This document shows positions 3,968 through 17,669 of a stretch of DNA of 45,767 nucleotides, in pieces. The position numbers were made by a program, and so were the translations under genes. Positions within the stretch are counted from its first letter, which is position 1. Each line of letters opens with the position of its first letter. The notes beneath the pieces are model-generated. The model saw nothing but the letters and a program-made list of their open reading frames with translations, did not search any database and was not told the DNA's origin. The DNA is taken from IMG/VR virus record IMGVR_UViG_3300046169_000113, positions 1 through 45,767 of that record; one strand, given 5' to 3'. This DNA is from a virus.

Positions 3968-4147
3968 ATGAGCTCTGTAATTTTTGTCAAAGGAAAAGAC
4001 TTGAAGCCCGGTGATGTGGTGCAACTTGTTAACAAAGCCACGCTACAAATCAACAAAAATGACACTAAGCGGGAAGTCGTAACTTGCGTAGCAGGTAAAG
4101 AAATCTCATACTCACCTTACCACACTTTCAAAATTGTTAAACCATGA
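3968..4147 (+). CDS. Small protein, 59 aa
   Basis: The reading frame starts ATGAGCTCTG at 3968 and ends with TGA overlapping the next gene's ATG (ATGA at 4144-4147), a typical translational coupling. The product contains DLKPGDVVQLVNK, a short beta-barrel-like pattern seen in small phage proteins of unknown role, and ends TFKIVKP. The four-base overlap and continuous coding sense support it as a real gene. Confidence 0.6.
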   Translation: MSSVIFVKGKDLKPGDVVQLVNKATLQINKNDTKREVVTCVAGKEISYSPYHTFKIVKP

Positions 4148-5115
4148 ACAAACTACTTGACGACGTATCAGAATTCCATACAAAATTTGGGCTGCAACAA
4201 CACCACAAAGCCCGGTTTTTATCTAAAGAAGAACACTCATTTGCACTAAAAGCCTTACGAGAAGAATTTGACGAATGGGCCGACGCTTGTGCAGTTGGTG
4301 ATCTTGAAGGCCAACTTGACGCATTGATTGACCTAATTTATTTCGCTTTAGGGCGTGCCCACATCCAAGGGTTGCCTTTTGATGAGGCCTGGAATAGGGT
4401 ACACACCGCCAATATGTCTAAAGTGAGGGCTAACAAAGCTAGCGATTCGAAAAGAGGTTCTAAGCTAGATGTAGTTAAACCTGAAGGCTGGAAAGCTCCT
4501 GAGTTTTCTGACCTTTTATCGCATAGCAGTTTTATTCATAGCGACCCTAAATTTATTATTGTTGAAGGCTGCGACGCTTTAGGTAAAACAACTTTGGCTA
4601 ATCGATTAGCGAAGCATTACGATGCCGCATATTGGCACATGACTTCTACAAAAAACCTATCGCCAAAGCAAACCGTGCGTGATTACTTTCAAAACGCTTT
4701 AGACAATGTTGCAGAAAACTTAGCTAACGGAAAAAGCGTAGTGCTAGACCGCTTTTGGCCATCTGAGTTTTGTTACGGCTCAGAACTTAGAGGAGTCAGT
4801 TTAACCGATGTCAGTGAAATCGCAGAAAAATGCGCCAACCTAAATCCTCATTTTGTTTTTTGCTTTCATCTTTCCGGACAAAATATGGCTTTAAAGCAGC
4901 ATAAAAAGAATGTAGATCTTGACCATCCTTACGATGACGAACTGTATCTACGAGTTTACCAAAACTATATAGATCTTTTTGACCAACAAAGCAGACTCGC
5001 TAAATTTTTTCCGAACAAGATTGTCACAAAATACTTTTTCGAATCTGAAATTTTTGAAAAGTCATTTCAGAATTTTATCCCATACTTACAAGGACGCCTT
5101 TATGAGCAAATATAG
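4144..5115 (+). CDS. MazG-like pyrophosphohydrolase fused to a deoxynucleoside monophosphate kinase
   Basis: There are two domains. Residues about 1-115 are an all-alpha MazG/PRA-PH-like NTP pyrophosphohydrolase: REEFDEW near residue 40 and DALIDLIYFALG near 59-70 supply the EExxE and ExxD-type metal ligands. From about residue 135 a P-loop kinase begins: FIIVEGCDALGKTT (Walker A), then a VVLDRFWPSEFCYGSEL stretch like the DR(F/Y) motif of thymidylate and dNMP kinases. Such a fusion could remove a canonical dNTP and phosphorylate a modified dNMP. It overlaps the TS-family gene by 14 bases. The substrate is not readable from sequence. Confidence 0.8.
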   Translation: MNKLLDDVSEFHTKFGLQQHHKARFLSKEEHSFALKALREEFDEWADACAVGDLEGQLDALIDLIYFALGRAHIQGLPFDEAWNRVHTANMSKVRANKASDSKRGSKLDVVKPEGWKAPEFSDLLSHSSFIHSDPKFIIVEGCDALGKTTLANRLAKHYDAAYWHMTSTKNLSPKQTVRDYFQNALDNVAENLANGKSVVLDRFWPSEFCYGSELRGVSLTDVSEIAEKCANLNPHFVFCFHLSGQNMALKQHKKNVDLDHPYDDELYLRVYQNYIDLFDQQSRLAKFFPNKIVTKYFFESEIFEKSFQNFIPYLQGRLYEQI

Positions 5116-5902
5116 CAACACACATAAAACAGACTCCGTTTGGCTTTCTACGCTACACCGGCTTCTGCAAGCGAAGAAAACTAGTCCAAGAAACTTTGAA
5201 ACTAGGGAAATAATCAACCACACTTCAGTAGTTGACATGTCAGATCCTATAGTGAAAATCAAAGCACGCAAAATGAACTATACTTTCATGTATGGAGAAG
5301 CTTATTGGATTCTTTGGGGCAGTAACATGGCACAAGACATTGTTCCTTACTGTAAGCCTATCGCAAAATTCTCTGATGACGGCGTCCGGTTCGATGGAGC
5401 TTATGGCCCTATGGTTGTACAGCAAATCAGATATTGTGTGGACTGCCTTAATTCTGATCCTCTTAGTCGGCAAGCAGTCATGTCAATATGGAGGCCTAAC
5501 CCAAGACCAAGCAAAGATATACCTTGCACAGTGTCGTTGCAGTTTTTAATTAGAGACGGCAAAATACACTGCATCGCCAATATGAGATCTAGCGACATCT
5601 GGCTGGGTTGGGTTTACGATGTTTTTAACTTTAGCTGCGTTGCAAACTACATCCGCTTGAGCCTAAGCAATAGCGATTCTATTAGCTTAGGCAATTTATA
5701 CCTAAACGCGGCAAGTCAGCATTTGTACGAATCTGACGCTGAAAAAGCTCAAAAAGTGATTGATTCTTTTTCATCTGACACGATTCATCCGGTTTTAAAC
5801 CCTCTCACGTGGTCACAAGAACTCCCTTCAGACTTTCATCAAGATCTTAAAGACTTAAGAGATGGCAACACGCACTCATCTTTGTATCATGAACAGAATT
5901 AG
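5102..5902 (+). CDS. Thymidylate synthase-family enzyme, probable deoxypyrimidine (dCMP) hydroxymethylase
   Basis: The protein has 266 aa from the ATG at 5102, which overlaps the upstream stop. It has the TS-family catalytic Cys in IPCTVSLQF (about residue 142), the phosphate-binding MRSSDIWLG (Arg about 162), and a QHLY motif downstream. At the TS position that reads Asn in FNIA (Asn177 in E. coli), this protein has Asp in YDVF (about residue 173). In this superfamily that Asn recognises dUMP, while T4 dCMP hydroxymethylase carries Asp there and prefers dCMP. The His of PPCH is Thr. Product 5-hydroxymethyl-dCMP, or methyl-dCMP, is therefore likely. An unusual dUMP enzyme remains possible. 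Confidence 0.75.
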   Translation: MSKYSNTHKTDSVWLSTLHRLLQAKKTSPRNFETREIINHTSVVDMSDPIVKIKARKMNYTFMYGEAYWILWGSNMAQDIVPYCKPIAKFSDDGVRFDGAYGPMVVQQIRYCVDCLNSDPLSRQAVMSIWRPNPRPSKDIPCTVSLQFLIRDGKIHCIANMRSSDIWLGWVYDVFNFSCVANYIRLSLSNSDSISLGNLYLNAASQHLYESDAEKAQKVIDSFSSDTIHPVLNPLTWSQELPSDFHQDLKDLRDGNTHSSLYHEQN

Positions 5903-6302
5903 CAAAATTGAATACGCTTTAGAAATCGCTAAAGTCTGTGCTTTGAGGTCAGAAGATCCTCATAGAAAAGTTGGCGCGGTTGGCTTATCAAAAGACGGCA
6001 GAATAGTTTCAACCGGCTACAACGGATTAGCGCCTGGTAAAGAAGTCAGTGAGTCGTTTTGGCTAGACCGCGCTGGGCGACTTCCATACGTTATCCACGC
6101 CGAGGCTAATATGTTAGCTAGGTGTAAACTAGGAGAAGTGCACTACGTCGCTTGCACGCTATCTCCGTGCGTAGAATGCATGAAGCTAATGATTGCGCAT
6201 GGCATAAAAGAAATTTACTACATCGAAGAATATGAAAGAGACACAAAAGCATTTGATCTCGCCAAATTTTACGGCATCACACTGATGCAAATTGCTAACT
6301 AA
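5889..6302 (+). CDS. dCMP deaminase-family zinc enzyme
   Basis: The protein has 137 aa and the cytidine/dCMP deaminase signature: HAEAN (about residue 70, His ligand and catalytic Glu) and SPCVECMKLM with two Cys zinc ligands. DPHRKVGAVG near the N-terminus is typical of dCMP deaminases. It converts dCMP to dUMP. I chose the ATG at 5889, which overlaps the upstream stop by 14 bases; an in-frame ATG at 5862 would add nine residues. It completes a nucleotide block with the TS-family enzyme and the kinase fusion. Confidence 0.85.
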   Translation: MNRISKIEYALEIAKVCALRSEDPHRKVGAVGLSKDGRIVSTGYNGLAPGKEVSESFWLDRAGRLPYVIHAEANMLARCKLGEVHYVACTLSPCVECMKLMIAHGIKEIYYIEEYERDTKAFDLAKFYGITLMQIAN

Positions 6303-11819: not shown

Positions 11820-13206
11820 CCCTGCCCAAAAAATTGGCGAAAGTCTTCTAAGAGATAAAAGCCACCAAGGCAAAGGCTTGTTTATGGGGTGCGGCCTCGG
11901 AAAAACGGCTACTTGCTTAAGCGTCGTCTCCGAAAAGCTACTCGACTTAGAGATTAGAGGTGTGTTAGTTCTTTCACCTCTCAGAGTAAACAATATGAAT
12001 TGGCCATTCGAGCATCTAAATTTCGAAAACTTTTCATGGATGCGAGCTGTTAACCTAAGAACTAAAGAAGGCTGGCAAGCATTAGAAGAAAAATCAGCGC
12101 ACATTTACTGCATCAACTACGAAAGCTGCCACAAAATTATTGACTTCCTGAAAGGCAAACAGGTTAAAAACTGGCCTTTTGACGCTGTTATATTTGACGA
12201 GCTGACTTTTTTGAAAAATCCGAAGTCTAAAACCGCAAAGCTTTTAAGGCCGTATGTGTTTAAGCTAAAACACCGTTGGGGTTTGACAGGTACCCCTAAC
12301 CCTAACTCTCTACTAGAACTTTTTGGCCAGATTAGAATGTTAGATAAGGGCGAAGCCTTAGGTAAATCGTTTAGCGCTTTCCGTAGCCGATACTTTGAGG
12401 CTTTAGATTACCATAAAAGAGACTGGCAGCCTTTGCCCTGGGCTGAAAAAGCGATCAAAGAAAAAATCGAAAGCTTTTGCGTTATGCTTTCCACAGAAGA
12501 CTATATAGACTTGCCGGACATTCAGGAAATTGATTACGAAATCGAATTACCATCCGAACATAGAAGCCTTTATAAGAAACTCGAAAAAGATCTTTTTGCT
12601 TTGCTAGATGAAGATTCTGGTGATTACGCTTTTGCCCCAAATAAGGCGGTGTTAAAAGACAAGCTCTTGCAAATTACGAGCGGTTGCCTTTATTCTCTAA
12701 CAGAAAACGATGACCGCACGGCGCAGTTTTTACACAACTCTAAAATAGACGCTGTAAAAGCTATCAAAAAGAAAGAAAAATCTCCCCTACTGGTTTTTTG
12801 TAATTTTATTGAGGAGCAAAAAAGACTTCTTGAAGAGTTACCAGGTTCAATCGCAATATCTTCAGCCAAAACTCAAGAGCAACAGAAAAACTTAGAGAGG
12901 CAATGGAATAGCGGCAAGATTCCATACCTCGTGTCTCATCCGAAATCAGCTGCCCATGGTCTTAACCTACAGCACGGCGGTAGTACAGTTGTCTGGACTA
13001 CTCCGACGCATTCTGGCGAGTACTACGGACAAGGAAATAGGCGCGTAGCGCGTAAAGGTCAGAAGTTTCCTCCTAAAGTTTACAGAATTTTGTGTAAAAA
13101 GACGGTCGATTTTGCTGTAGTAGATTCACTAAGAAAAAAGAAGCTTGGTGAGCTCGCGTTAGCTGAGTCTTTAAAAGCATACAAAAATACTTTAAAACTT
13201 TTTTAG
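11803..13206 (+). CDS. SNF2-family DNA helicase/translocase
   Basis: The protein has 467 aa. Motif I is GCGLGKTAT (about residues 29-37), motif Ia VLVLSPLRV, motif II FDELTFLKN (DEXX-like Asp-Glu, about 132), motif III WGLTGTPNPN, and motifs V-VI AAHGLNLQHGG and QGNRRVARKGQ. This is the compact phage SNF2-like helicase usually paired with a VRR-NUC protein, here encoded just upstream with overlap. Probable roles are fork remodelling or recombination. Its stop is followed directly by promoter-leader copy 2. Confidence 0.9.
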   Translation: MKYVPDPAQKIGESLLRDKSHQGKGLFMGCGLGKTATCLSVVSEKLLDLEIRGVLVLSPLRVNNMNWPFEHLNFENFSWMRAVNLRTKEGWQALEEKSAHIYCINYESCHKIIDFLKGKQVKNWPFDAVIFDELTFLKNPKSKTAKLLRPYVFKLKHRWGLTGTPNPNSLLELFGQIRMLDKGEALGKSFSAFRSRYFEALDYHKRDWQPLPWAEKAIKEKIESFCVMLSTEDYIDLPDIQEIDYEIELPSEHRSLYKKLEKDLFALLDEDSGDYAFAPNKAVLKDKLLQITSGCLYSLTENDDRTAQFLHNSKIDAVKAIKKKEKSPLLVFCNFIEEQKRLLEELPGSIAISSAKTQEQQKNLERQWNSGKIPYLVSHPKSAAHGLNLQHGGSTVVWTTPTHSGEYYGQGNRRVARKGQKFPPKVYRILCKKTVDFAVVDSLRKKKLGELALAESLKAYKNTLKLF

Positions 13207-13280
13207 TTTTTATTGTTTACAAGTAGCAAAAAGCATCTATAGTCAAAATCGTCACCAACCAATAACTACTAAGAACTACT
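13207..13280 (+). promoter_or_regulatory. Repeated promoter-leader, copy 2
   Basis: TTTACA at 13216-13221 and TATAGT at 13238-13243 have a 16-base spacer containing TAGCAAAAA. The shared leader ends ACTACTAAGAACTACTATG at the gene at 13281. The left arm of the inverted repeat seen in later copies is absent. It probably drives the 13.3-17.7 kb operon. Confidence 0.75.
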
Positions 13281-13598
13281 ATGGAAACAGACTACAAACC
13301 TGGACAACTATTGACTTTAAAAGATTGCCACAAAGAGCGCCTTAAAAATGGTAACGCTACAATCCCTGACTTTATAAAAGTTTTAGGGTCCGATCTTTCA
13401 CCCTCTAAGACTTTGAGAGTGCAATGCTCTTACATATCAAGGCTTGACTATATTTCAGACTTTCATCAAACGTGGGATGCGCCTATTTCAGAATTGCGCA
13501 ATTTAACTGAGCCGCTAAGCTGTTTTAAATGTGACAAAGTAGGTCGGCGCGGAATTAAAACACGTGGGTTTAGTGTTAGCAGCGAACCGCGCATTTAA
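13281..13598 (+). CDS. Hypothetical protein, 105 aa
   Basis: A soluble protein of unrecognised family, first gene after promoter-leader copy 2, which fixes the start. It begins METDYKPGQLLTL and has a CFKCDK pair in the C-terminal third. Eighteen bases of it (13438-13455, encoding part of SRLDYI) recur in the following short gene, marking a local recombination event. Confidence 0.6.
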   Translation: METDYKPGQLLTLKDCHKERLKNGNATIPDFIKVLGSDLSPSKTLRVQCSYISRLDYISDFHQTWDAPISELRNLTEPLSCFKCDKVGRRGIKTRGFSVSSEPRI

Positions 13599-13848: not shown

Positions 13849-13934
13849 AGAAGAGTGCTCAAGCCGTCGCTGATCTTAGCGTCGTTTCGCCTGGTGCGCT
13901 CCGCGAGTTTTTCGCTAAAAACTTCGGAGAATAA
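13773..13934 (+). CDS. Small protein, 53 aa
   Basis: This is the intact copy of the duplicated gene: MNVRKNNKGGWSISVNGRLV, then SAQAVADLSVVSPGALREFF. The last part resembles a short HTH-like or DNA-binding segment, but I recognise no family. It ends four bases before the AAA+ ATPase gene, so it is probably cotranslated with the modification operon. Confidence 0.55.
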   Translation: MNVRKNNKGGWSISVNGRLVGNYITKKSAQAVADLSVVSPGALREFFAKNFGE

Positions 13935-13938
13935 AAAT

Positions 13939-14796
13939 ATGGAAGCAGGAGACTTAGTTCAAGTTAAAGTCAATGGCGAAATCGTCAGTGCGATTTTTCA
14001 AGATTGGAGGCCGTGCGGCAAATACGCGGTCGTGCTTTTCGGCGACAAAAGGATTTACCGGAAGCCAATAAATAGTTCTAATTTTAGTGCAAAGCCGGCG
14101 CAACAAAGTCTTTATCACATTAACGAAAGATTTGAATTTATAGAAAACATTGTCGACATGGTTGCTTTAGGGGAAAGTAAGTCGGCAATTATCTCAGGCA
14201 GCGGTGGGCTCGGAAAGACCTACACAGTTCTCGGACGTTTACATAAAGCTGGCTTTCAAGAAGAAATTGACTACAAAATGGTCAAAGGTTTTACAACGCC
14301 AAAATCTTTATATAGGCTGCTATTTACAAACCAAGACAAGATCATAATTTTTGACGACACGGATAGCGTGTGGCAAGACCAGACAGCTGTTTCATTACTC
14401 AAAGGTGCTTTAGATAGCTACGATGTAAGAAAGCTCTCATGGATGACTTCAAGAGGAGATGACGGAATTCCTGAAACTTTTGAATTTAAAGGAAAAATCA
14501 TTTTTATTTCTAACTTACCGCTTTCTAAACTAGACCAAGCCGTACTAAGCAGAGCTTTGTACGTAGATGTCAGCATGTCTCCTCAAGAAAAAATTGACCG
14601 CATCAAGTTTATTTCACCGAAAATTCGCCCAGAGATAGATGGGCAAGTCAAAAAAGAAGTGCTTGATTTCTTAGAAGTTAAAGCCGACCAGATTGGTGAC
14701 TTGAACATACGCACTTTTTTGAAAGGTCTAGAGATAAGACTTTCCGGAAATTCTAATTGGCAACAAATGTTTGACTATATGGCAACAGCATTTTAA
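13939..14796 (+). CDS. AAA+ family ATPase
   Basis: The protein has 285 aa from ATG 13939; an upstream in-frame start at 13855 would overlap the preceding gene and is less likely. Residues 1-45 look like a small beta domain. The AAA+ core has Walker A GSGGLGKTYT (about 86-95), Walker B KIIIFDDTD (about 135-143), sensor 1 IIFISNLPL and an arginine-finger-like LSRAL. Similar stand-alone phage ATPases bind DNA or load partners, but no specific role is established here. It begins the tight four-gene operon and may remodel DNA for the modification enzymes (inference). Confidence 0.75.
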   Translation: MEAGDLVQVKVNGEIVSAIFQDWRPCGKYAVVLFGDKRIYRKPINSSNFSAKPAQQSLYHINERFEFIENIVDMVALGESKSAIISGSGGLGKTYTVLGRLHKAGFQEEIDYKMVKGFTTPKSLYRLLFTNQDKIIIFDDTDSVWQDQTAVSLLKGALDSYDVRKLSWMTSRGDDGIPETFEFKGKIIFISNLPLSKLDQAVLSRALYVDVSMSPQEKIDRIKFISPKIRPEIDGQVKKEVLDFLEVKADQIGDLNIRTFLKGLEIRLSGNSNWQQMFDYMATAF

Positions 14797-14799
14797 ACT

Positions 14800-15822
14800 A
14801 TGAGCAAAGACAAAATACTTTTAGCGGGAGTTTTGCAAAATCCTCCTACGCGACTAACTTCTCACAATGCAGGATGGACGTATGTTCTTAAAAGCATGGC
14901 TGAGCATAAATACGGCTCTACTGTGGAAGTCGCGAAAGGGGGTGAACATTGGGCGGATTTCGACCGAGTCATTTTGACTGAAGGGGTAAATTTTAGAGCC
15001 GGCACTTGGAATTTATTCGGGGGAGTTTCTGAAGCACTAAAGGCGAGAGTTAGAACTTTTAGGTGGGCGAAAGATTCATGCCTTTTTGTCGACACGATTG
15101 CCCAATGCCCAGACTACAAAGATCTAGCCCTCAAAAGAAACTTAGAGCCTTTTGCGTTAGACGGAAAAATCGATTCTAAGACAACATGGGATTTTATCCC
15201 AGCCGCTAAAACTTTTGTGCTAGGAGACTCGCACAGCTTGTCAGTATACGAGCCTGGTGCAAACATACGCAGGATGGATGGCAAAACATTGCACGGAGCC
15301 CTAAAAATCGGCCTTGAAAACTTAATTCCTTTACGCCATGATCCTTACGAAAAGCTCGTGTTGTATTTTGGAAACATCGACTTACGCTTCCACATCTGCA
15401 AATTCACTGATCCTTTGAAAGCGATTGACACTTTGCTTAAACATTTGCTTTGGCAGGTTGAAGCTTTGATTGTTTTAGGGTATTGTGAAGCTGTAAAACT
15501 TGTCATGCCTCTACCTATTGAGACAGAAGATCGCAAAATACCAAAGTCAGGACAATATAAAGGGCATAATTTTTTAGGCTCAGCTGAAAATCGTAAAATG
15601 CTCCGCCGATATTGGGTAAGTAAGTGCAAATCTATCTTTAAAAAACTAAGAAAGTCTGGGCAAGTCCATTTAGAAGAGTGGGACCACCTAAAAGTAGACG
15701 ACGAAGGCTTTTTACTTCAAAGCCAAATGGAAGCTAAGCAAAGTGTCCATTTGGCACCTTGCTCCTATTCTACTACGTTTGTAAATTACATTCTTCAGCA
15801 CGTAATCAATGAAAACAACTAA
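14800..15822 (+). CDS. SGNH-hydrolase-like protein of unknown function, candidate DNA-modification enzyme
   Basis: The protein has 340 aa in two parts. Residues 1-125 form an alpha/beta region with TEGVNFRAGTWNLFGG and no recognised family. From about 138 it has SGNH-like blocks in order: VLGDSHSL (candidate nucleophile Ser144), YFGNIDLRFH (Asn192, a GxND-like block) and SVHLAP (His317, the block V His). SGNH enzymes cleave or transfer acyl groups. It lies 3 bases after the ATPase and overlaps the next gene by 14, so it should share a pathway with the transferase and PLP enzyme. Acylation or deacylation of a modified base is a hypothesis. Confidence 0.6.
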   Translation: MSKDKILLAGVLQNPPTRLTSHNAGWTYVLKSMAEHKYGSTVEVAKGGEHWADFDRVILTEGVNFRAGTWNLFGGVSEALKARVRTFRWAKDSCLFVDTIAQCPDYKDLALKRNLEPFALDGKIDSKTTWDFIPAAKTFVLGDSHSLSVYEPGANIRRMDGKTLHGALKIGLENLIPLRHDPYEKLVLYFGNIDLRFHICKFTDPLKAIDTLLKHLLWQVEALIVLGYCEAVKLVMPLPIETEDRKIPKSGQYKGHNFLGSAENRKMLRRYWVSKCKSIFKKLRKSGQVHLEEWDHLKVDDEGFLLQSQMEAKQSVHLAPCSYSTTFVNYILQHVINENN

Positions 15823-16753
15823 ATACTACGACGACTTTCTGCAATACTTCTCTAAAGCAAAGCTTTTAGAGGAAGGTAAACACCCTGTCGGTGATCCCCT
15901 CATGGATACGGTTCCCATCTATGACTGCGTCCATCGGAGATGTGCCGGGTTCAGCAATGTGCTTGAGGACATAATGCGTAAAGGCAAAATGCATTTGATG
16001 AGAGGAAAAACTTTTAAGGAAACTCTGACCGTGTTTTTGATTCACAGGCTAACCGGATCCGGTGCAAGTTTTGAGCATGACCACGGCTATAGGAATTCTT
16101 GCATCTTTGACATGCTAGAGTCGTGCCAGAATTCATCCGAGTGGGTGGATTTTCTTATCACATACAAAAAGCCAATGTTTACTACTTTGGGAAATCAGAC
16201 ACCACTTTTCCCAAAGCCGGAGCCTCCGTACAAAAAAGGTAGTCAAGTCTATTTTACAAAATACCTTGAGCCGATTGTTTCAGACTTTGCAGATTTTTTA
16301 GATTTGCTTGGCCAGTCAAGTATTTGCGATGCAGTTGATTTCTGCTTAGACTGGCATAAAAGAAACGGCATAAAAAGGTTCCTGTTTGTTTTAACGGCGT
16401 TTGTGATAGATGTCGCTGAGTATTTTCCGGAAAAAGTGAATCCGGATTCAGATGTATATTTAGGAAAAAACTCCATAGAGGCTTTAGAACTGATTTTCGG
16501 TCACCGTTTCAAAAGCCAAAAATTACACGACGTTGCCATCAGGCATTTAATTAAAGCGACCGGCTCAGTCAATACTCCCTACGATATGGAAGACGTTGTC
16601 TGCGACTACATACGTTACGTCGAAAACTACCTACCGAAAAAAGGCTACGAAGAGCACAAAGAGTCGCTTTTAAATAACTCTTTAGTAAAAGATCACCCTA
16701 AAGGCCGGCAATTTTCAGACATCCTTGGATCAATCGTAAACCATGGCTCATAA
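15809..16753 (+). CDS. aGPT-PPlase/amino-acid:DNA transferase-like protein (base hypermodification)
   Basis: The protein has 314 aa, largely helical. The RLTGSGASFEHDHGYRNS segment (Arg80 onward) and the downstream FVLTAFVIDVAEYFPEKVNP region resemble the alpha-glutamyl/putrescinyl-thymine pyrophosphorylase families described in phage hypermodification loci. Those proteins replace an activated hydroxymethyl group on a DNA pyrimidine with an amino acid or polyamine. The assignment is from remembered motif shape and context, not a search. Overlaps of 14 and 11 bases with its neighbours tie it to the SGNH-like and PLP genes. No separate hydroxymethyl-pyrimidine DNA kinase is evident in the window. 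Confidence 0.5.
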   Translation: MKTTKYYDDFLQYFSKAKLLEEGKHPVGDPLMDTVPIYDCVHRRCAGFSNVLEDIMRKGKMHLMRGKTFKETLTVFLIHRLTGSGASFEHDHGYRNSCIFDMLESCQNSSEWVDFLITYKKPMFTTLGNQTPLFPKPEPPYKKGSQVYFTKYLEPIVSDFADFLDLLGQSSICDAVDFCLDWHKRNGIKRFLFVLTAFVIDVAEYFPEKVNPDSDVYLGKNSIEALELIFGHRFKSQKLHDVAIRHLIKATGSVNTPYDMEDVVCDYIRYVENYLPKKGYEEHKESLLNNSLVKDHPKGRQFSDILGSIVNHGS

Positions 16754-17669
16754 CAACCATACGAAAAGCTTAAGAAATCAAGACTTAGACAACTTCTGCA
16801 GAGAAGACTACCTCGCTATGTGCCGAGGTTTTCAGTCTAGTTTTGATATTCCGACCGTAAAAACTTTTTTGCTCGAGGACGGCAGAAAAATAAACGTGGT
16901 AGACGAGAGCGAAATAGCTGTAGGATCCAAGTGTAGATTTGGCGAAATGTTGATAAAAAACTGCCCGCACAAAACTATTGTCTACGTCCAGCCAAGATTC
17001 GGGTTTGCTGGCATATCCTTAACCTGGCTTTGCAAACAGTACAAGAAAAAACTGGTCCTTTTTATGCCGTCATCTAAAAAAGTCAGTGAACACCAGGCTT
17101 GGTGCATAGCTAACGGTTGCGAGCCTCATTTCTATAGAATAGCCGCAATGCCCAATCTTAACAAAATTGCGAAAGAGTGGGCTGACCAGAACAAAGCCTT
17201 TTTTGTACCGTTAGGCCTCAGGCATCCTCAAGTAACAGCCGCGGTAGTTAACACATGCGAAAGTTTGCAATCCGCTGGGCACAATCCTGGCGCTATCTGG
17301 TGTGCAACCTCTACTGGTGTACTTAATAGAGGACTTCAAATCGGCTTCCCGGATTGCCAGCTTCATGGCGTAGCGGTCGCTAGAAATATTAAAGAAGGCG
17401 AAAAAGGCGCATCAACTCTTTTCTCGTACCATAAAGCTTTCCAGCAGTCTGTCGCGTCTAAAGTTTTTTCACCTTTCGATTCTTGCGACAATTACGATTT
17501 AAAAGCTTGGGATATTTGCTGCCAGTATGCTGACGACGGAGACTACTTCTGGAATGTTGCTGGCAATCTAAGGTTAAAGCAAGATTTTGTAAATAGCATC
17601 GCGTCGAAAGTCGATTCTTATAGAGACTGGGGAGAAATTAAAGACCCACAGCGTAGTCTCTTTTTATAA
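16743..17669 (+). CDS. PLP-dependent enzyme, fold type II (tryptophan synthase beta/ACC deaminase-like)
   Basis: The protein has 308 aa. VVDESEIAVGSKCRFGEMLI resembles the PLP-lysine segment of fold II enzymes, with candidate Lys63. It continues with an FGFAGISLTWLCKQYKKKLVLFMP substrate-domain pattern, and CATSTGVLNRG (about 187-197) resembles the phosphate-binding loop. It is shorter than typical metabolic members. As the last gene of the modification operon it may act on an amino acid attached to a base, for example by decarboxylation, elimination or replacement; this is inference. Its last 32 bases overlap the convergent fibre gene. Confidence 0.65.
   Translation: MAHNNHTKSLRNQDLDNFCREDYLAMCRGFQSSFDIPTVKTFLLEDGRKINVVDESEIAVGSKCRFGEMLIKNCPHKTIVYVQPRFGFAGISLTWLCKQYKKKLVLFMPSSKKVSEHQAWCIANGCEPHFYRIAAMPNLNKIAKEWADQNKAFFVPLGLRHPQVTAAVVNTCESLQSAGHNPGAIWCATSTGVLNRGLQIGFPDCQLHGVAVARNIKEGEKGASTLFSYHKAFQQSVASKVFSPFDSCDNYDLKAWDICCQYADDGDYFWNVAGNLRLKQDFVNSIASKVDSYRDWGEIKDPQRSLFL

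Follow-up and report, generated by a model that had tools for sequence, protein, structure and literature searches.

What do the closely packed genes at positions 13855-17669 of the virus record IMGVR_UViG_3300046169_000113 (IMG/VR) do? A sequence-only reading of this record, whose 45,767 bp were analysed in full and are called the window here, had proposed that four genes encoding an AAA+ ATPase, an SGNH-like protein, an amino acid:DNA transferase (ADDT)-like protein and a fold-II pyridoxal phosphate (PLP) enzyme hypermodify the viral DNA by a chemistry related to, but differing from, that of the phage thymidine pathways. We found that three of them, encoding the SGNH protein, an all-helical protein called P314 and the PLP enzyme, form a genuine, widely conserved and so far undescribed cassette, which on balance probably hypermodifies 5-hydroxymethylcytosine (5hmC) in the virus DNA. 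The cassette genes and the AAA+ open reading frame (ORF) share one strand:

13855..14796, plus strand: AAA+ ATPase (phrog_1250, E=1.4e-49), starting at GTG 13855 or, likelier, ATG 13939; a neighbour outside the core cassette.
14800..15822, plus strand: SGNH-fold protein of 340 amino acids (aa), by predicted fold.
15809..16753, plus strand: P314, all-helical, 314 aa, with a predicted fold like that of ADDT and of the helical proteins of 5-hydroxymethyldeoxyuridine (5-hmdU) DNA kinases.
16743..17669, plus strand: fold-II PLP enzyme, by Pfam and PHROG (phrog_7093, E=3.9e-33).

A gap of 3 bp separates the AAA+ and SGNH genes, while SGNH and P314 overlap by 14 bp and P314 and PLP by 11 bp. The four ORFs can be taken as real genes because a closely related contig (L002) keeps all of them in identical order, with 83-95% protein identity for SGNH, P314 and PLP, and because 393 viral stretches recovered by an alignment search encode relatives of P314. 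No close relative of the region was found among phages at the DNA level, nor any phage match to P314 by tblastn, and the cellular copies of P314 are restricted to three contigs of metagenome-assembled genomes (MAGs).

The best 80 of these stretches were fetched and 79 counted, the eightieth being the close relative. SGNH, P314 and PLP occur together in 62 of the 79, and 54 of these three-gene contigs additionally carry a gene of the thymidylate synthase (TS) family. The order SGNH-P314-PLP is found on one strand in 43 contigs, many of them closely related and thus not independent, and in one more with PLP on the opposite strand; the reordered sets (P314-PLP-SGNH in 14, SGNH-PLP-P314 in three, P314-SGNH-PLP in one) belong to different phage groups. 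A search seeded with the PLP enzyme returned the close relative and six loci, each with all three genes, and in contig L028 SGNH and P314 are fused into a single protein. A larger set of seven genes, namely dCMP deaminase, dUTPase_2-like, SGNH, P314, PLP, thymidylate-kinase-like kinase and dCMP hydroxymethylase, is present in 32 contigs. On the contrary, the AAA+ gene was rejected as a member of the cassette: its family is a general gene of T4-type phages, matched by 1263 phage records of which many are T4-type, and it does not stand beside SGNH, P314 and PLP at the other cassette loci. Proteins of this family (window 13855-14796; L005:9390-10367) are often annotated as thioredoxin.

The AlphaFold model of the SGNH protein (pTM 0.84) matches platelet-activating factor acetylhydrolase and other SGNH esterases when compared with the PDB by Foldseek (prob 1.00, E down to 7e-5), which places it within the fold of the SGNH superfamily. 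Its motifs are GDSHS, with Ser144 (codon 15229-15231), GNID, with Asn192, and SVH, with His317. Ser144, Asp194 and His317 are invariant in 28 SGNH sequences, and Asn192 is nearly so.

The predicted model of P314 is all helical (pTM 0.82). Its first matches in BFVD are its own relatives, among which one carries the name amino acid:DNA transferase; an ADDT-named protein (E=1e-4, TM 0.57), aGPT-PPlase1 and the helical 5-hmdU DNA kinase proteins from phages Lucky3, phiRSL1 and PhiW-14 come next. Several members of the fold are matched with prob 1.00, TM about 0.43-0.59 and 11-13% identity, and the similarity to ADDT-named proteins (E=6e-18 and 1e-4) comes without a match to PF18724 in Pfam. Judging from these models, P314 resembles the aGPT-PPlase/ADDT/HMUDK_hel proteins in sharing their helical fold. 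No significant match was obtained in Pfam, PHROG or NCBIfam, and membership of ADDT or HMUDK_hel at the sequence level was unsupported by Pfam, PHROG and hhalign; this null says little because the ADDT and HMUDK_hel families fail to find each other by the same profile method.

The PLP enzyme belongs to phrog_7093, the family that contains gp52 of phage M6, a PLP enzyme acting in the route to 5-aminoethyl-dU. It aligns with the gp52 family by hhalign (97%, P=9e-11), and the two have in common the lysine motif and, at the C-terminus, a YD-K-W/WN motif; the candidate Schiff-base residue is the invariant Lys63 (16929-16931), in GSKCR. By these alignments it is a remote relative of gp52, which is reported (Lee et al.) to decarboxylate the DNA-bound amino acid.

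At this point, the sequence-only reading can be followed in its parts. Its four genes with gaps or overlaps of a few bases agree with the ORF coordinates, its SGNH-like protein with the predicted fold, and its fold-II PLP enzyme with Pfam and PHROG, whereas its AAA+ ATPase lies outside the core cassette. It had called the 15809-16753 product aGPT-PPlase/ADDT-like and had made this depend on a profile match; none was obtained, and the likeness stands by predicted structure.

Which base, then, would be modified? Three genes upstream of the cassette bear on this:

4144..5115, plus strand: fusion of a MazG-type pyrophosphohydrolase (PF01503, E=2e-15) and a thymidylate-kinase-like dNMP kinase (PF02223, E=4e-8; TIGR00041, E=3.9e-14, under that model's cut-off).
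4979..5902, plus strand: TS-family protein with a dCMP-hydroxymethylase signature by alignment; probable ATG start at 5102.
5862..6302, plus strand: dCMP deaminase (PF00383, E=1.5e-17; phrog_174, E=3.5e-38).

When the TS-like protein was aligned with T4 gp42, M6 gp58, SPO1 gp29 and E. coli ThyA, its catalytic Cys was found to be followed by Thr (E. coli TS position 147), and an Asp (codon 5618-5620) occupies position 177, aligning with Asn177 of E. coli TS and Asp179 of T4 gp42. Unlike the window protein and T4 gp42, M6 gp58 and SPO1 gp29 have Asn at both signature positions. The Asp177/Thr147 pair is present in all 60 scorable TS-family copies from the window and the cassette contigs. Asp at this position goes with cytosine substrates and Asn with uracil substrates (PMC5175136), a link with cytosine also made elsewhere (PMC6400193), so that a dCMP-type hydroxymethylase, a feature of 5hmC phages, is present in the window by its signature. 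In metagenomes, Asp177 marks contigs with modified cytosine, and such contigs combine domains of the TS, PRA-PH, dCMP deaminase and MafB19 deaminase types (PMC8670742); the window holds the same four domains. Because the signature is found in all copies, is linked with cytosine in published work and is accompanied by the matching domain set, the substrate of the cassette is probably 5hmC and not thymine.

No match to the 5-hmdU DNA kinase models PF18748 and PF18723 was found in 25 records, namely the window and 24 relatives that include fragments, in line with the sequence-only reading, which had seen no hydroxymethylpyrimidine-DNA kinase. In phage M6 itself, gp54 (L019:21686-22249) is labelled terminase small subunit in its record and in phrog_800, yet it matches PF18748. 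That the nucleotide genes at 4.1-6.3 kb relate to a hydroxymethyl base was also supported, by the MazG and thymidylate kinase domains, the TS-family protein and the dCMP deaminase, although the dCMP signature moves that base from the thymidine pathways to cytosine (PMC5175136, PMC8670742). Hypermodification by an SGNH, a helical and a PLP protein without the known kinase is supported by the conserved gene set, the fusions, the predicted folds and the linked nucleotide-modifying genes, but the AAA+ role and the thymine base are not.

The pathway that we infer from these genes takes DNA as its target. The MazG domain would remove dCTP, the TS-like enzyme would convert dCMP to 5-hydroxymethyl-dCMP (hm-dCMP), and the kinase domain would phosphorylate the latter, leading to hm-dCTP, so that 5hmC would replace cytosine in DNA. 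The hydroxymethyl group of 5hmC would then be handled jointly by SGNH and P314: P314 would bind DNA and present the base, and the SGNH serine would activate the hydroxyl by acyl transfer, in replacement of the pyrophosphorylation carried out by the 5-hmdU DNA kinase. That SGNH takes the place of the kinase as activator is suggested by analogy, because the SGNH-helical fusion parallels the kinase-plus-helical arrangement of the 5-hmdU DNA kinase. An amino acid would subsequently be attached to the activated base, and the PLP enzyme would decarboxylate it or otherwise trim it, in the manner of M6 gp52. This would leave a modified cytosine of the aminoalkyl type, with which the virus DNA would resist the nucleases of the host. 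We hold the exact order of these steps only tentatively, and it may well prove to be different.

In part, the cassette would work like known hypermodification pathways. The M6 pathway, leading to 5-aminoethyl-dU, comprises gp51 (ADDT), gp52 (PLP), gp53 (radical SAM) and gp54/gp55 (5-hmdU DNA kinase). Both systems have a PLP enzyme, the two falling into one broad family, a helical protein of ADDT/HMUDK_hel fold and a TS-family hydroxymethylase; unlike M6, the cassette virus has a dCMP-type and not a dUMP-type hydroxymethylase, has no kinase and no radical SAM neighbour, adds an SGNH protein, and encodes a P314 unmatched by PF18724 or PF18723. Of the features of M6/ViI-type systems, the gp52-type PLP enzyme was found, and the dUMP hydroxymethylase and the 5-hmdU DNA kinase were not; because these two are defining, we did not file the cassette as a member of the thymidine pathways. 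With T4, the window shares the hydroxymethylase signature, dCTPase-like and dNMP-kinase-like domains and the dCMP deaminase, but in place of the sugar transfer of T4 (gp42, gp56, gp1, glucosyltransferases) 5hmC would be decorated by SGNH, P314 and PLP. Finally, as in the 5hmC carbamoyltransferase systems (PMC8670742), 5hmC decoration would go together with genes for TS, PRA-PH and dCMP deaminase, but the enzymes are unrelated. A carbamoyltransferase was considered as decorator and rejected, since the window lacks one; in a single binned MAG such a gene is present, on a different contig.

Several points weigh against the proposed pathway. The usual catalytic Asp of the DxxH motif is not conserved in the SGNH protein, which could instead add or remove an acyl group late, as a final acyltransferase or an editing esterase. 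P314 has no profile link to ADDT or HMUDK_hel (Pfam, PHROG, hhalign), and its best match in the PDB is a non-significant one to a DNA glycosylase (E=1.4). Within the fragments examined, P314 occurs without SGNH or PLP in some contigs. Besides, dCMP deaminases may also deaminate hm-dCMP, giving 5-hydroxymethyluracil (hmU).

The Aeromonas phages speak partly for the pathway, by having SGNH along with a gp42-type enzyme and by the SGNH fusion in 44RR2, and partly against it, by what they lack and by their sugar genes. SGNH homologues were found in 43 phage records, most of which belong to T4-like phages of Aeromonas, 44RR, 31 and 25 among them, and the representatives 44RR2.8t.2, phiAS4 and avDM4 carry a canonical TS and a gp42-type Asp enzyme. 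Like these phages, the window has an SGNH homologue and a gp42-type hydroxymethylase (PMC2993671); unlike the window, the three SGNH-bearing representatives have neither P314 nor PLP. In 44RR2 and AS4 the SGNH protein carries a further, fused domain, the C-terminal part in 44RR2 being weakly similar to HMUDK_hel (E=0.0036) and phrog_2396 (E=0.0013); SGNH stands alone in phage-25-type genomes such as phiAS4. Sugar genes also adjoin SGNH in these phages, a UDP-galactopyranose mutase in phiAS4, where a 358-aa protein is encoded beside SGNH as well, and a galactose transporter in 44RR2 (L016:2724-4906, L005:4372-5895), and a sugar may be involved at the Aeromonas loci.

Such loci lend themselves to an explanation that we regard as rather unlikely for the cassette but worth weighing, in which SGNH itself modifies 5hmC, as an O-acyltransferase or as an esterase editing acyl or sugar groups, while P314 is its DNA-binding partner and PLP supplies or tailors an amino-acid donor. 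The SGNH fold with its retained Ser and His, the fusions of SGNH to helical domains, the Aeromonas and Tenacibaculum phages that have SGNH but neither P314 nor PLP, and the mutase near SGNH in phiAS4 would all fit; however, PLP is tied to P314 in the contigs, it resembles an enzyme known to act on the DNA-bound adduct, and no acyl-donor gene was seen.

Less probable still is that the cassette hypermodifies thymine or 5-hydroxymethyluracil as in M6 and ViI, with hmU arising by deamination of hm-dCMP. The kinship of the PLP enzyme with gp52, the ADDT/HMUDK_hel-like fold of P314 and the dCMP deaminase gene that many contigs carry in linkage with the cassette speak for this explanation, but the linked hydroxymethylases are of the cytosine type in 60 of 60 cases, where M6 gp58 and SPO1 gp29 have Asn, and no 5-hmdU DNA kinase was found in the 25 records; dCMP deaminase domains, for their part, co-occur with modified cytosine too (PMC8670742). 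Very improbable is a role in making a small molecule or in modifying RNA or protein, with the cassette linked to the hydroxymethylase by chance: fold-II PLP enzymes and SGNH proteins are indeed common in metabolism, but the linkage to a dCMP hydroxymethylase recurs in differently ordered loci and P314 has a DNA-modification fold.

If 5hmC hypermodification by the cassette is true, amino-acid hypermodification chemistry would come to include cytosine and a route that needs no kinase, and the enzymes would offer a new means of labelling 5hmC. To our knowledge, the 5hmC decorations of phages are sugars or carbamoyl groups, and thymine is the only base known to bear groups derived from amino acids. 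The broader idea of a second, cytosine-directed branch of amino-acid hypermodification, activated by SGNH and trimmed by PLP across hundreds of uncultured viruses, is a speculative one that we put forward with little confidence. The cassette could explain DNA protection in some phages devoid of sugar-adding enzymes. A 2010 review reported genes 42 and 56, but no glucosyltransferases, for 44RR, 31 and 25, and left open whether 5hmC undergoes further modification in phages of this kind (PMC2993671); SGNH provides a candidate gene for such a decoration, if any.

Other arrangements were met around these families. P330, a second helical family, lies near P314 in 29 loci (L073:9139-10152 and 28 others) of several phage groups, some of them without SGNH or PLP in view; according to hhalign (probability 71%, P=3.7e-5), it is likely a remote paralogue of P314. 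An HhH-GPD DNA glycosylase-like gene lies upstream of P314 in L073 (6101-6865), L074, L081 and L086, with no PLP in view, and directly precedes P314 except in L073, where SGNH comes after it. In Erythrobacter phages ZS04 and R6L, a PLP domain is part of a ParB and N6/N4 DNA methyltransferase protein, and the PLP, ParB and methyltransferase parts are separate genes in Microcystis phage Mae-JY30 (these loci being L003:2326-4764, L017 and L004:6375-8693), possibly another PLP-linked DNA modification. In L097, a C5-cytosine methyltransferase gene (12354-13562) immediately follows SGNH, and a DUF1599 (Nmad1)-like gene precedes the hydroxymethylase.

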